A stretch of 64,000 nucleotides of DNA, taken from assembly GCA_000720995.1 (NCBI GenBank), contig JOEL01000004.1:248001-312000 (forward strand), written 5' to 3'. Both the position numbers and the translations under genes were made by a program. Shown in pieces: positions 33,618 to 37,176 of the stretch; position 1 is the first letter of the stretch, and the number at the start of each line of letters is the position of its first letter. Below the pieces are notes generated by a model. The model was not told the origin of the DNA, searched no databases, and saw only the letters and a program-made list of their open reading frames with translations. This DNA comes from Streptomyces celluloflavus. Its GTDB lineage: Bacteria > Actinomycetota > Actinomycetes > Streptomycetales > Streptomycetaceae.

Positions 33618-33712
33618 GCACCGTAGCCGGTCCCACCGGGCGGATTCGCGGGATGTTCCGCCCCGAAGCCCCTTAGGCGGCACTTATCCCGGCCCATGGC
33701 ACACTCGCACCA

Positions 33713-34372
33713 ATGGACATCTCGGCGGCACACCTGCGGGCACTGCGCGCAGCGCTCTTCACGGCGCTGTGCGTGACGCTGTCCTCGGCGTCCCATGTGC
33801 TGCTGTCCCGTATGCCGCTGCCGGTGACCACCGTCGCCGCCCTCTCCCTCGCCGTGTACGCGCTCGCCTACGCACTGGCCGGCCGGGAGCGCGGCTACTG
33901 GCGGATCGCCGCGCTGCTGCTCCCCCTGGAGCTGGCCGCCGACACCGTCTTCAGCATCGGCCAGCACACCTGCTACGGACCGGCCGGCGGCCCGGTCACC
34001 GGCGCGCTGCGCTCGCTGGGCGTGGATCTGCTCTGCGGCGGCGGCTCGGTCGGCTCCCCGCTGACCCAGCTGTCCGGGAACGACGCCGCACCCGCCTCGA
34101 CCTGGCTGCTGCTGCTCGTGGCGCATCTGCTCATCGGGCTGCTGGCGGCCGCCTGGCTGCGCCGCGGCGAGGCCGCGCTGGCGCAGCTGCTGGGCGCGGT
34201 GGCCGGTTTCGCCTTCCGGCCGCTGCTGATCGCCGTCGCGGTCGTCGGCCGGGCGCTCGCCCCGCGCCGCCCGGTGCCCGCTCCCGTGGGGGCCGTTCCG
34301 GCCACCGGCACCGCCCCCCTGCTCGTGCACTGTGTCGTGCGCCGTGGACCGCCCTGCGCGCTCGCTGCCTGA
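33713..34372 (+). CDS. Conserved-Cys multi-pass membrane protein, copy 1 of the duplicated module
   Basis: A 219-aa protein with four clear membrane helices (about residues 11-31, 38-57, 64-83 and 130-149). By the positive-inside rule (RERGYWR and WLRRGE inside), the loop of residues 84-129 is outside the cell. It holds C87 in GQHTCYGPAGGPVT and C108 in VDLLCGGG. C20 (FTALCVTLS) and C207 (VHCVVRRGPP) are also kept in copy 2 at 35476. No family is recognised; paired extracytoplasmic Cys beside a DsbA-like gene suggest a thiol-oxidoreductase partner. No ribosome site; CACACT lies 7 bases before the ATG. Confidence 0.8.
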   Translation: MDISAAHLRALRAALFTALCVTLSSASHVLLSRMPLPVTTVAALSLAVYALAYALAGRERGYWRIAALLLPLELAADTVFSIGQHTCYGPAGGPVTGALRSLGVDLLCGGGSVGSPLTQLSGNDAAPASTWLLLLVAHLLIGLLAAAWLRRGEAALAQLLGAVAGFAFRPLLIAVAVVGRALAPRRPVPAPVGAVPATGTAPLLVHCVVRRGPPCALAA

Positions 34373-34479
34373 GGCCCCGGCCCGCGCAGCGCGCGTACGC
34401 ACGCACCCGTAAGGCGCGCGTACGCCTCCCGACAGCACGCACCCCCTTCCCACGGATTTCCCACGGAGCAGGTACAGCC

Positions 34480-35322
34480 ATGAGCAACCGCAACAACCAG
34501 GCCAACAAGCAGGCAGCGCGCGAGCGGCTGCGCGCCGAGCGCGAGCGGCAGGCGAAGAAGGACCGGACCCGTCGGCAGCTGACGGTCGGCGGCGCGATCG
34601 TCGCGGTCCTCGCGATAGCCGGCGGTATCGGCGTGGCGGTCGCCAACTCGGGCGACGACAGCTCCGGCGGCAGCGGCGACGCCTGGGCGAAGGCCGCGAA
34701 GGCCACGCTCGTCAAGCCCGCCAACACCGCCGGTGACAAGGGCACCGAGGTCGTCATCGGCAAGGCGGACGCCAAGAACACCCTGGAGGTCTTCGAGGAC
34801 CCGCGCTGCCCCGGCTGCGCCAACTTCGAGCAGAACGTCGGGGAGCAGATCCAGAAGGACGTCAAGGACGGCAAGTACAAGGCGTCCTTCCACGTGGGCA
34901 CCTTCCTGGACGGCATGCTCAAGGGCACCGGTTCCAAGGACGCGCTGAGCGCGCTGGGTGCCTCGCTCAACGTCGGCCCGGACGCCTTCCTGAAGTACAA
35001 GGAGGCGCTGTACTCGAAGGAGTACCACCCGGAGGAGACCGGCCCGGACAAGTTCGCCGACAACAGCTACCTGCTCAAGGTCGCCGACACCGTCCCGGCC
35101 CTCAAGGGCAACGCCGCCTTCCAGAAGGCCGTCAAGGACGGTACGTACGACCGGTGGGCGCTGGAGATATCCGACGCGTTCAACGCGGTCAAGGACGTCA
35201 CCAGCACCCCGACGATCAAGATGAACGGCACGGTGCTGGGCACCGACGGCGAACGGGGCAAGGTCGCCCCGGCCACGCTGGACGCCTTCAACTCGATGGT
35301 CGACAAGGCCCTGAAGTCCTGA
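34480..35322 (+). CDS. Membrane-anchored DsbA-like protein, copy 1 of the duplicated module
   Basis: A 280-aa protein: a basic cytoplasmic tail (MSNRNNQANKQAARERLRAE), one membrane helix at about 35-55, a short linker, then an exported thioredoxin domain. The active site is C110-P-G-C113 (FEDPRCPGCANFE) and the cis-Pro loop is TSTPTIKMNG near residue 247. It should act on disulfides of secreted proteins. It begins 107 bases after the membrane-protein gene of the module, in the same direction. The first 66 bases are identical to those of copy 2. A 12-bp terminator follows the stop. Confidence 0.9.
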   Translation: MSNRNNQANKQAARERLRAERERQAKKDRTRRQLTVGGAIVAVLAIAGGIGVAVANSGDDSSGGSGDAWAKAAKATLVKPANTAGDKGTEVVIGKADAKNTLEVFEDPRCPGCANFEQNVGEQIQKDVKDGKYKASFHVGTFLDGMLKGTGSKDALSALGASLNVGPDAFLKYKEALYSKEYHPEETGPDKFADNSYLLKVADTVPALKGNAAFQKAVKDGTYDRWALEISDAFNAVKDVTSTPTIKMNGTVLGTDGERGKVAPATLDAFNSMVDKALKS

Positions 35323-35328
35323 CCCCCC

Positions 35329-35357
35329 GCCGTGCCCGGCCGGCCGCCGGGCACGGC
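35329..35357 (+). terminator. Stem-loop between the two module copies
   Basis: A 12-bp perfect stem (35329-35340 with 35346-35357), loop of 5, starts 6 bases after the copy 1 DsbA-like stop. It suggests that each module copy is its own transcription unit. Confidence 0.7.
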
Positions 35358-35475
35358 TGACCGCGGCATTCCCGGCCGGCGTGCGATCCGCGCGCCGGCC
35401 GATGCCAAATCTTGACCCGGCCTTCCGTCGTGTTCATGGCAGACTCCCGGCATGCAGGGGACGGGAGTGCGCCCG

Positions 35476-36174
35476 ATGGCCCGGCCGGCGGTGCACCTCA
35501 GGATGGTGCGGGCCGCGCTGTTCACCGCGCTCTGCGTCACCCTGTCCGCCGCCTCCCACGTCCTGCTCTCGCGCGCCCCGTTACCGCCCGCGACGGTCGC
35601 CGCGAGCTGCGCCGCCGTCTTCACCGCGGCGTACGCACTGGCCGGCCGGGAGCGCGGCTACGGGCGGATCGCCGCCCTCCTGATACCGCTGGAGCTGGCC
35701 GCCGACACCGTCTTCACCGCCGGGCAGCACACCTGTTACGGACCGGCCGGCGGCCCGGTCACCGGCCCGCTGCGCGCGGTCGGCGTCGAACTGCTCTGCC
35801 GGGGCGGTGAGCTGGGCACTCCGCTGGCCCGGGTGGCCGCCCATCCGGGCGGCCCGCTGCCGCCCGCCGTACCGGCGGCCGCCCCCTGGCTGCTGCTCGC
35901 CGCGCATCTGGCGGTCGGGCTGCTCGCCGCCGCCTGGCTGCACCGCGGGGACGCCGCACTGGACCGGCTGCTGCGCGCGGTGGCCGCGTTCGCGTTCCGG
36001 CCGCTGCCGCGCGCGGACGCCGCCGCGCCTCCCCCGCCCCGCCGCCGGATCCGGCCCCCGCACCCCGTGGCCCCGGCCCGCCCGCGGCCCCACCTCGTGC
36101 ACTGCGTACAGCGCCGCGGCCCGCCCCCCGCGCCCGCACGGCAGGGGCGCCACCACCGCCCCGCCGCCGTCTGA
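35476..36174 (+). CDS. Conserved-Cys multi-pass membrane protein, copy 2 of the duplicated module
   Basis: A 232-aa paralogue of the gene at 33713. Over its residues 8-111 I count 83 of 104 identical positions without gaps. The loop motif GQHTCYGPAGGPVTG and VELLCRGG are kept, as are the first-helix Cys (FTALCVTLS) and the C-terminal VHCVQRRGPP. ATG at 35476 puts the two N-termini in register and has GGGAG 8 bases upstream. An ATG at 35452 is possible too, since CAGACT lies 6 bases before it. The C-terminus is longer and Pro/Arg-rich. Function unknown, as for copy 1. Confidence 0.8.
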   Translation: MARPAVHLRMVRAALFTALCVTLSAASHVLLSRAPLPPATVAASCAAVFTAAYALAGRERGYGRIAALLIPLELAADTVFTAGQHTCYGPAGGPVTGPLRAVGVELLCRGGELGTPLARVAAHPGGPLPPAVPAAAPWLLLAAHLAVGLLAAAWLHRGDAALDRLLRAVAAFAFRPLPRADAAAPPPPRRRIRPPHPVAPARPRPHLVHCVQRRGPPPAPARQGRHHRPAAV

Positions 36175-36234
36175 GCAGTCCGTACGAGAGTCGGCGTCAG
36201 CCCGCCGCAGCACCGAGGGGACCGGGACACACCC

Positions 36235-37176
36235 ATGAGCAACCGCAACAACCAGGCCAACAAGCAGGCAGCGCGCGAGCGGCTGCGCGCCGAGCGCGAG
36301 CAGCAGAAGAAGAAGGAGAAGGTGCGCCGCCAACTCGTCGTGGCGGGCGCGGTGGTCGGCGTCCTGGCGATCGCCGGCGGGATCGGTTACGCCGTGCTGA
36401 AGGCGAACGAGCCCACCGGCTGGGAGGCCGCCAAGGAGGCCAAGCTCGTCGCACCGGCGCACACCCAGGGCGAGAACGGCACCGAGATCCTGATCGGCGA
36501 CAAGAACGCCAAGGAGACCCTGGAGGTCTTCGAGGACGTGCGCTGCCCGGCGTGCGCGGCGTTCGAGCAGAGCACCGGCCCGGCCCTGCTCAAGGACATC
36601 GAGGACGGCCGGTACAAGGTCCGCTTCACCATGTACACCTTCATCGACGGCATGGGCGGCGGCGAGGGCTCCAAGAAGGCGCTGAACGCGCTCGGCGCGG
36701 CGCTGAACATCAGCCAGGACGCCTTCCTGAAGTACAAGGCGGCGCTGTACTCCGCCAAGTACCACCCCGATGAGCGCGAGGACGTCTACGGCAAGAACGC
36801 CGAACTGCTCAAGGTCGCCGCCGAGGTACCGGCCCTGAAGAACAACAAGGCGTTCGAGACGGCGGTCGAGCAGGGCACCTACAACCGCTGGGTGACGGAG
36901 ATGACCGCGCTGTTCGGCCGCAAGGGGGTCAAGGGCACGCCGACCTTCATGCACGGTGACAAGAAGCTGGTGATTCCCGAGGTGCCGCAGCAGCAGATGA
37001 CGCAGGAGCAGTACAACCAGCTCGCGCAGGCCAACTTCAAGAAGATGATCGACAAGGAGTTCGGCCCGGCGAAGGGGACCGCTCCGGACGCGGACAAGAA
37101 CGGCGGCAAGGACGGCGCCAAGGACAAGGAGAGCGGCGGCGGGAAGGGGATCCGCGAGGGCGAGCCGACCCGGTAG
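36235..37176 (+). CDS. Membrane-anchored DsbA-like protein, copy 2 of the duplicated module
   Basis: A 313-aa paralogue of the protein at 34480: the same basic N-tail, one membrane helix (about 34-54), and an exported thioredoxin domain with C104-P-A-C107 (FEDVRCPACAAFE) and the cis-Pro loop KGTPTFMHG. The dipeptide between the cysteines is P-A rather than P-G, so its redox potential may differ from copy 1. The last 35 residues are Lys/Gly/Asp-rich and absent from copy 1. ATG at 36235 is in exact register with copy 1. Confidence 0.9.
   Translation: MSNRNNQANKQAARERLRAEREQQKKKEKVRRQLVVAGAVVGVLAIAGGIGYAVLKANEPTGWEAAKEAKLVAPAHTQGENGTEILIGDKNAKETLEVFEDVRCPACAAFEQSTGPALLKDIEDGRYKVRFTMYTFIDGMGGGEGSKKALNALGAALNISQDAFLKYKAALYSAKYHPDEREDVYGKNAELLKVAAEVPALKNNKAFETAVEQGTYNRWVTEMTALFGRKGVKGTPTFMHGDKKLVIPEVPQQQMTQEQYNQLAQANFKKMIDKEFGPAKGTAPDADKNGGKDGAKDKESGGGKGIREGEPTR

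Follow-up and report, generated by a model that had tools for sequence, protein, structure and literature searches.

DsbB is a membrane protein with four helices and outer cysteines, and VKOR (PF07884) is a small multi-helix membrane protein, also with outer cysteines, whose gene can lie beside that of a DsbA. In Mycobacterium tuberculosis, DsbA and VKOR (Rv2969c/Rv2968c) are described as the products of one operon (PMC3853704). Streptomyces species secrete many disulfide-containing enzymes and serve as industrial secretion hosts. In Streptomyces lividans, Sli-DsbD (SLIV_27370) was disrupted by Gullon et al., using primers named 2067; their report describes a BdbD-like protein with a CxxC motif, places its transmembrane helix at residues 34-56, and states that mutants of all four S. 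lividans candidates, Sli-DsbD included, affect alpha-amylase, with harm on disruption of Sli-DsbD (PMC6657201). The subject here is a 64,000-nucleotide window of Streptomyces celluloflavus (assembly GCA_000720995.1, contig JOEL01000004.1, positions 248,001 to 312,000), which holds, within positions 33713-37176, two adjacent gene pairs, each encoding a membrane protein (MP) followed by a DsbA-like protein. We propose that MP is an accessory thiol subunit of the VKOR-DsbA oxidative folding pathway in Streptomycetaceae, with an outer cysteine pair that would exchange disulfides with DsbA, a tentative reading to which we assign a probability of about 0.45.

Both pairs lie on the forward strand, and their open reading frames bear out the tandem arrangement described in the original prediction. 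In the first pair, MP copy 1 (33713..34372; 219 residues) precedes DsbA-like copy 1 (34480..35322), whose active site is C110-P-G-C113 (codons 34807..34818); in the second, MP copy 2 (35452..36174; 240 residues) precedes DsbA-like copy 2 (36235..37176), with C104-P-A-C107 (codons 36544..36555). The two MPs are 59% identical and the two DsbAs 58%, showing that a two-gene unit was duplicated. MP copy 2 had previously been started at 35476; an in-frame ATG at 35452, located 6 nucleotides downstream of a -10-like element, is probably the correct start, because several related second-copy MPs (e.g., those of loci L088, L113 and L122) begin at the matching ATG. Both DsbAs match Pfam Thioredoxin_4 and carry CxxC. 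In each, a single hydrophobic segment (about residues 33-55, judged by reading the sequence) lies close to the N-terminus and is followed by the thioredoxin domain; thus, the anchor is N-terminal rather than, as had been supposed, at the tail. Solved structures related to DsbA copy 1 include 4k6x and 4jr4, which we take to be mycobacterial DsbA.

Neither MP copy matches a Pfam or NCBIfam family. As originally predicted, the sequence resembles neither VKOR nor DsbB: PF07884 matched neither the window MPs at E <=1 nor any member of two sets of relatives (A3, 22 members; A2, 80 members), and PF02600 likewise matched none of these proteins, in scans of A3 and A2 where the HMMER filters drop most weak matches. 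Against Pfam as a whole, members of these sets gave scattered weak matches, the best with an E value of 0.0013 in a single member. MP is the product of a third gene, common in Streptomycetaceae, that travels with DsbA and usually VKOR and has no relevant Pfam match.

We surveyed 80 named Streptomyces loci, the best 80 of 527 confirmed, which therefore lean towards the window type. A DsbA-like gene lies directly downstream of MP in all 80, with intergenic gaps of 34-178 nucleotides across 94 pairs, so the predicted neighbourhood link is present throughout. For residue counts, 191 MP rows were reduced to 156 by dropping proteins shorter than 180 residues and rows with identical cores, a step that loses broken or fragmentary MPs (e.g., the second MP of L091); 124 of the 156 are DsbA-linked and 32 are unlinked. 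Two cysteines, C87 (codon 33971..33973 in copy 1) and C108 (34034..34036), are Cys in 124/124 distinct linked MPs, as the original prediction implied; with fragments included, a gap occurs at C87 in 3 and at C108 in 2 of 155 linked rows. They are the sole cysteines among the 40 most conserved MP positions. The four cysteines originally described as kept in both copies (C20, C87, C108 and C207) are indeed common to the two, but across the linked MPs C87 and C108 alone are constant: position 20 is Cys in 64/124 linked MPs, at odds with a CcdA/DsbD-type conserved pair within the membrane, and the consensus at position 207 in a 31-row alignment is Ser. No second (CxxC) pair is present in the 124 linked MPs. 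Other positions of the linked signature are E73 and H138 (each 124/124), D77 (111/124) and H28 (110/124). In a tree that took in 94 of the 156 MP rows, the linked MPs form a single clade of 62 rows (Shimodaira-Hasegawa-like approximate likelihood ratio test (SH-aLRT) support 99).

Hydropathy of MP reveals four distinct membrane segments plus a less pronounced fifth one, and an AlphaFold model places helices at residues 3-32, 38-58, 62-88 and 128-182 with low confidence. Positive charge marks both termini as well as loops 2-3 and 4-5 (mean K+R in linked MPs of 2.2 for the N-terminus, 2.7 for loop 2-3 and 2.4 for loop 4-5), whereas loop 3-4, which contains C87 and C108, is net negative (K+R of 2.3 versus D+E of 2.9). 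From this charge distribution the loop is predicted to be outside, in agreement with the original proposal. Because the cysteine pair is constant, the DsbA linkage is found in every named locus, and the loop is predicted to face outward, the description of MP as an undescribed actinobacterial Dsb partner stands. MP shares four helices and an outer cysteine pair with DsbB; however, DsbB has two outer pairs and MP one constant pair. Similarly, five aligned VKORs have a loop pair plus a CxxC, whereas MP has C87/C108 alone.

A lone cysteine pair with a spacing of 21 would also suit a structural loop disulfide. MP might then be a plain DsbA client, its C87-C108 bond made by DsbA and its function unrelated to oxidative folding, and in S. 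lividans a secreted enzyme with disulfides is reported to require the DsbA for its activity (PMC6657201). A mere client, however, would not be expected to have a DsbA neighbour in 80/80 loci, to be duplicated jointly with it, or to co-occur with VKOR, and we regard this explanation as unlikely. The pair could instead report the disulfide state outside the cell, as proposed for C85/C103 of the sensor kinase CutS, described as two conserved outer cysteines 18 residues apart (PMC12802291); the similar spacing, together with a conserved promoter-like element upstream of MP, would fit such a sensor. Unlike CutS, however, MP has no matched kinase domain, nor any other matched signalling domain; in the model, its final helix leaves just ~40 residues to the C-terminus, and no regulator gene was noted in the gene row of the module. 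A sensory role is therefore highly improbable.

The genome of the window strain has one VKOR match and no DsbB match. To place the module relative to VKOR, we examined 40 Streptomycetaceae genomes, deliberately picking some whose matches are weak, and counted adjacency and co-occurrence by eye from coordinate lists. In 11 genomes from other Streptomycetaceae genera (G002, G003, G014, G015, G019, G027, G036, G045, G053, G070 and G183), the gene immediately downstream of the module's DsbA is VKOR, and the row MP-DsbA-VKOR occurs twice in each of G002, G036 and G053. These rows recall the mycobacterial DsbA-VKOR operon (PMC3853704), but here an MP gene precedes DsbA. Across the 40 genomes, 30 have both module and VKOR, 8 have neither, G025 has the module alone and G029 has VKOR alone (Fisher p 1e-6, kinship uncorrected). 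G070 was counted as module-bearing though a contig end cuts its MP side; without it, VKOR accompanies 29/30 modules. DsbB, which was sought in 15 of the 40 genomes, is present in G029 alone.

The usual co-occurrence of MP with VKOR makes a supporting role in the pathway likelier than substitution for the oxidase. The anchored DsbA would contact MP at the outer face of the membrane and exchange disulfides there with C87/C108, and MP would either dock DsbA or buffer oxidising equivalents beside VKOR. Electrons would flow onward through VKOR, which would stay the enzyme that hands them to quinone. The original prediction instead pointed to a thiol oxidase working along the lines of DsbB or VKOR. 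A constant outer cysteine pair beside DsbA fits an MP that itself keeps DsbA oxidised, substituting for DsbB or VKOR, and G025, whose single contig carries the module (L227/L260) in a genome with neither a VKOR nor a DsbB match, keeps that reading alive. However, VKOR is present in the genome of the window strain and in 30/31 genomes counted as module-bearing, and stands in the same gene row in 11; MP also lacks a second cysteine pair and any profile similarity to VKOR that our searches could find. The oxidase is therefore not supported as the leading interpretation, and we consider it quite improbable.

Several observations weigh against the accessory-subunit reading. G025 has the module without VKOR, and in G029 the reverse holds. 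Within Streptomyces, 0/80 loci with flanks of up to 10 kb had VKOR near the module, and the co-occurrence across genomes may derive partly from shared descent. The pairing of MP and DsbA is not one to one, given that loci with more DsbAs than MPs exist: 48 of the 80 named loci hold a single MP-DsbA pair and 14 hold two pairs (in one, L091, the second MP is shortened), but 13 have one MP followed by two DsbAs, and 5 have a DsbA upstream of MP as well as downstream. Finally, the MP model is weak (predicted local distance difference test score 67.6; predicted template modelling score (pTM) 0.44) and does not settle whether C87 and C108 can meet; searched with Foldseek, this same weak model gave no match at E <=0.001. 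The usual presence of VKOR and the constancy of C87/C108 make gene deletion and trapping tests feasible in standard laboratory strains.

MP falls in an unnamed family, the remaining members of which frequently occur in copper clusters. It is homologous over most of its length to the SCO3968-like membrane proteins of copper loci, with the same helix plan and a common signature; all 156 distinct MPs carry H138, and R211-P214 is kept in 99%. In Streptomyces coelicolor, the sco cluster SCO3968-3962 is listed as an integral membrane protein, a hypothetical membrane protein, Sco, a conserved hypothetical protein, CopC/D, a hypothetical protein and prephenate dehydratase (PMC3603459). A similar order is seen in L152, one of our loci, where MP lies upstream of YcnI (DUF1775), PCuAC-like and CopC/D genes and, by eye, a prephenate dehydratase, with no separate Sco gene listed, and in L202 and other loci, where the order is MP, YcnI, Sco, CopC/D. 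The genome of the window strain has four matches to MP copy 1, namely the two window copies, L003/L152 and L004/L153; in the last of these, MP is beside an extracytoplasmic function (ECF) sigma factor, with a CopA-like ATPase near. At least one of YcnI, Sco, CopC/D, CopA and PCuAC occurs in 20/30 non-DsbA member loci, surveyed over 9 to 16 kb, versus 0/80 DsbA-linked loci, surveyed with longer flanks over up to 20.7 kb (Fisher p 7e-15, kinship uncorrected). In 3 of the 30 copper-type loci the MP row was displaced by overlapping markers; it was an MP match that had led to the retrieval of these three.

The DsbA-linked clade differs from these relatives at specific positions. Unlinked MPs have H28, Q73, H77 and H138 in 32/32, C108 in 18/32 and C87 in 2/32, whereas the linked clade has E73, mostly D77, and C87/C108; 9/124 linked MPs, drawn from the VKOR-adjacent group, have Q28 and N77. 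The outer loop is 12.8% Met+His in unlinked and 3.8% in linked MPs, against 4.7% and 3.1% in the rest of the protein, so the linked clade shows no such loop enrichment. In the MP tree, rooted at its midpoint, three rows from G357 and G304, which belong to other families, fall outside all others, suggesting that the copper type is probably ancestral, with the root not proven; L165, from a third family, falls inside at an unresolved position. The family is narrow, detected in 17/396 genomes and 6/236 genera of the phylum (weak matches included) by a search that scored six candidates per genome and may miss members. The accessory subunit would thus descend from the copper-locus membrane family: its constant C87/C108 pair stands where copper relatives frequently carry an outer loop rich in Met and His, and their Q73..H77 in helix 3 is E73..D/N77 in MP. 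In that case, the module ties copper-locus proteins to oxidative folding.

This ancestry raises the question of whether MP still handles copper. H28, D77 and H138 are predicted in the outer part of the helices, compatible with one site, and Cu(I) could be held there and at C87/C108, with the thiol state controlled by the DsbA-like protein, as in Scs or Sco/TlpA systems. The retention of H28, H77 and H138 in all 32 distinct unlinked relatives, the copper genes in 20 of the 30 examined unlinked loci, and the resemblance of L152 and L202 to the SCO3968-3964 part of the sco cluster all fit this idea, and a precedent for a copper-binding DsbA-like protein is ScsC (PMC8900818, PMC5524982), that of Caulobacter crescentus being described as binding copper(I) (PMC8900818). 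However, the absence of the five copper markers sought from all DsbA-linked loci, the low Met+His content of the linked loop, and the Q28/N77 variants argue against it, and we judge retained copper handling unlikely. The literature searched, in the portions available, yielded no copper-binding measurement for any member of the copper-locus family. A bolder version, which we think very unlikely, would make MP a metal-dependent thiol oxidase that needs no quinone and arose within the copper family by convergence on the function of DsbB. Electrons from DsbA would reach oxygen by way of a metal site (H28/D77/H138) in the outward-facing half of the membrane, beside C87/C108; MP would act in parallel with VKOR, and alone in lineages of the G025 type, where no VKOR was found.

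The DsbA-like proteins of the module have a probable counterpart in the literature. Among the 80 named loci, dnaE lies near the module in 78 and a PhoD-like phosphatase, so assigned from its Pfam match in query locus L255, in 68. SCO2068 is given as phoD (PMC2853524), and if, as we infer, the primer number 2067 is an SCO number, the window DsbA occupies the place of Sli-DsbD/SCO2067 and MP that of SCO2066. This orthology is by gene order; the N-terminal anchor, the BdbD-like character and the CxxC are likewise similar, whereas the window has two copies, with CPGC and CPAC. SCO2067 is listed among the thioredoxins whose abundance in S. lividans exceeds that in S. coelicolor (PMC7244524); SCO2066 was named nowhere in the literature searched. 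The DsbA tree was built from fetched DsbAs and holds 72 rows after four duplicates were dropped, so weaker matches of some genomes are unplaced. In it, the linked DsbAs form one clade (SH-aLRT 99), in which 40 of 44 rows are labelled MP-linked; of the other four, L276 has an MP after all, L270 lies where its contig ends, no MP was seen for L283, and L041, from the genome of the window strain, is a long branch. L270 and L283 both belong to G070. The fetched DsbAs of nine module-less genomes lie outside this clade. In addition to the module at its dnaE locus (L112), S. kronopolitis has one with CPFC (L086) that has neither dnaE nor any of the other anchors in its vicinity.

In the MP and DsbA trees alike, window copy 2 clusters with the second copies found in another Streptomyces group (support 90 and 95, respectively), and copy 1 is placed elsewhere in each, suggesting that duplication of the whole module probably predates the parting of these Streptomyces groups, with partial loss later. 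Where two DsbAs come after an MP, CPGC is found in 22/27 of the first-copy DsbAs, the remaining five having CPIC; among single-pair loci it is found in 1/48. Thus, CPGC mainly marks one group of DsbAs; the copies may also differ in redox role, as the original prediction hinted.

Additional DsbA-like genes and copper-type paralogues were observed elsewhere. A second Thioredoxin_4 DsbA-like gene lies in the window at 351-1193 on the reverse strand, beside trpA- and trpB-looking genes, and is possibly of the SCO2035/Sli-DsbB type; its relative in G018 (L281) adjoins a MauE/DoxX gene, and G029 (L278) looks alike. DsbA-like genes also occur near copper-type MPs in L165 (two genes on) and L271 (divergent), and ~1.5 kb from the L153 copy in the genome of the window strain. 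ECF sigma genes are present in 10/30 non-DsbA member loci. Copper-type MP paralogues stand beside them in L153, L155, L158, L161, L162, L163, L200, L201 and L204, most with Met/His-rich outer loops, and CopA-like ATPases are also near in L153, L158 and L163; a copper-responsive sigma system is possible. In L165 (5500-7934), from a genome of another family, a copper-type MP and an ECF sigma factor are followed by a DsbA-like gene, and in L164 (5497-11096, reverse strand) a VKOR match lies ~4 kb from a pair of YcnI and copper-type MP genes.

A promoter-like element precedes each module copy on the forward strand. That of copy 1 (33671..33705) reads TTAG-N6-CTTA-N8-CATGGCACACT and ends 7 nucleotides upstream of the start codon; that of copy 2 (35411..35445) is diverged and ends CATGGCAGACT, a -10 form shared by related second copies. 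The pattern of the copy 1 element was fitted after inspection of the same sequences in which it was counted: its -10 part occurs in 80/80 related loci (L072-L151) and the full element in 57/80, versus 0.3 and 0.0 per 80 in shuffled sequences. The -10 part ends 7-10 nucleotides upstream of the MP start in 68/80 loci, which suggests a leaderless MP transcript under a putative regulator. In the element at 33671-33705 and its relatives, TTTAGG/CTTAC half-sites are spaced 11 bp apart and are followed by a CATGGCACACT-like -10.

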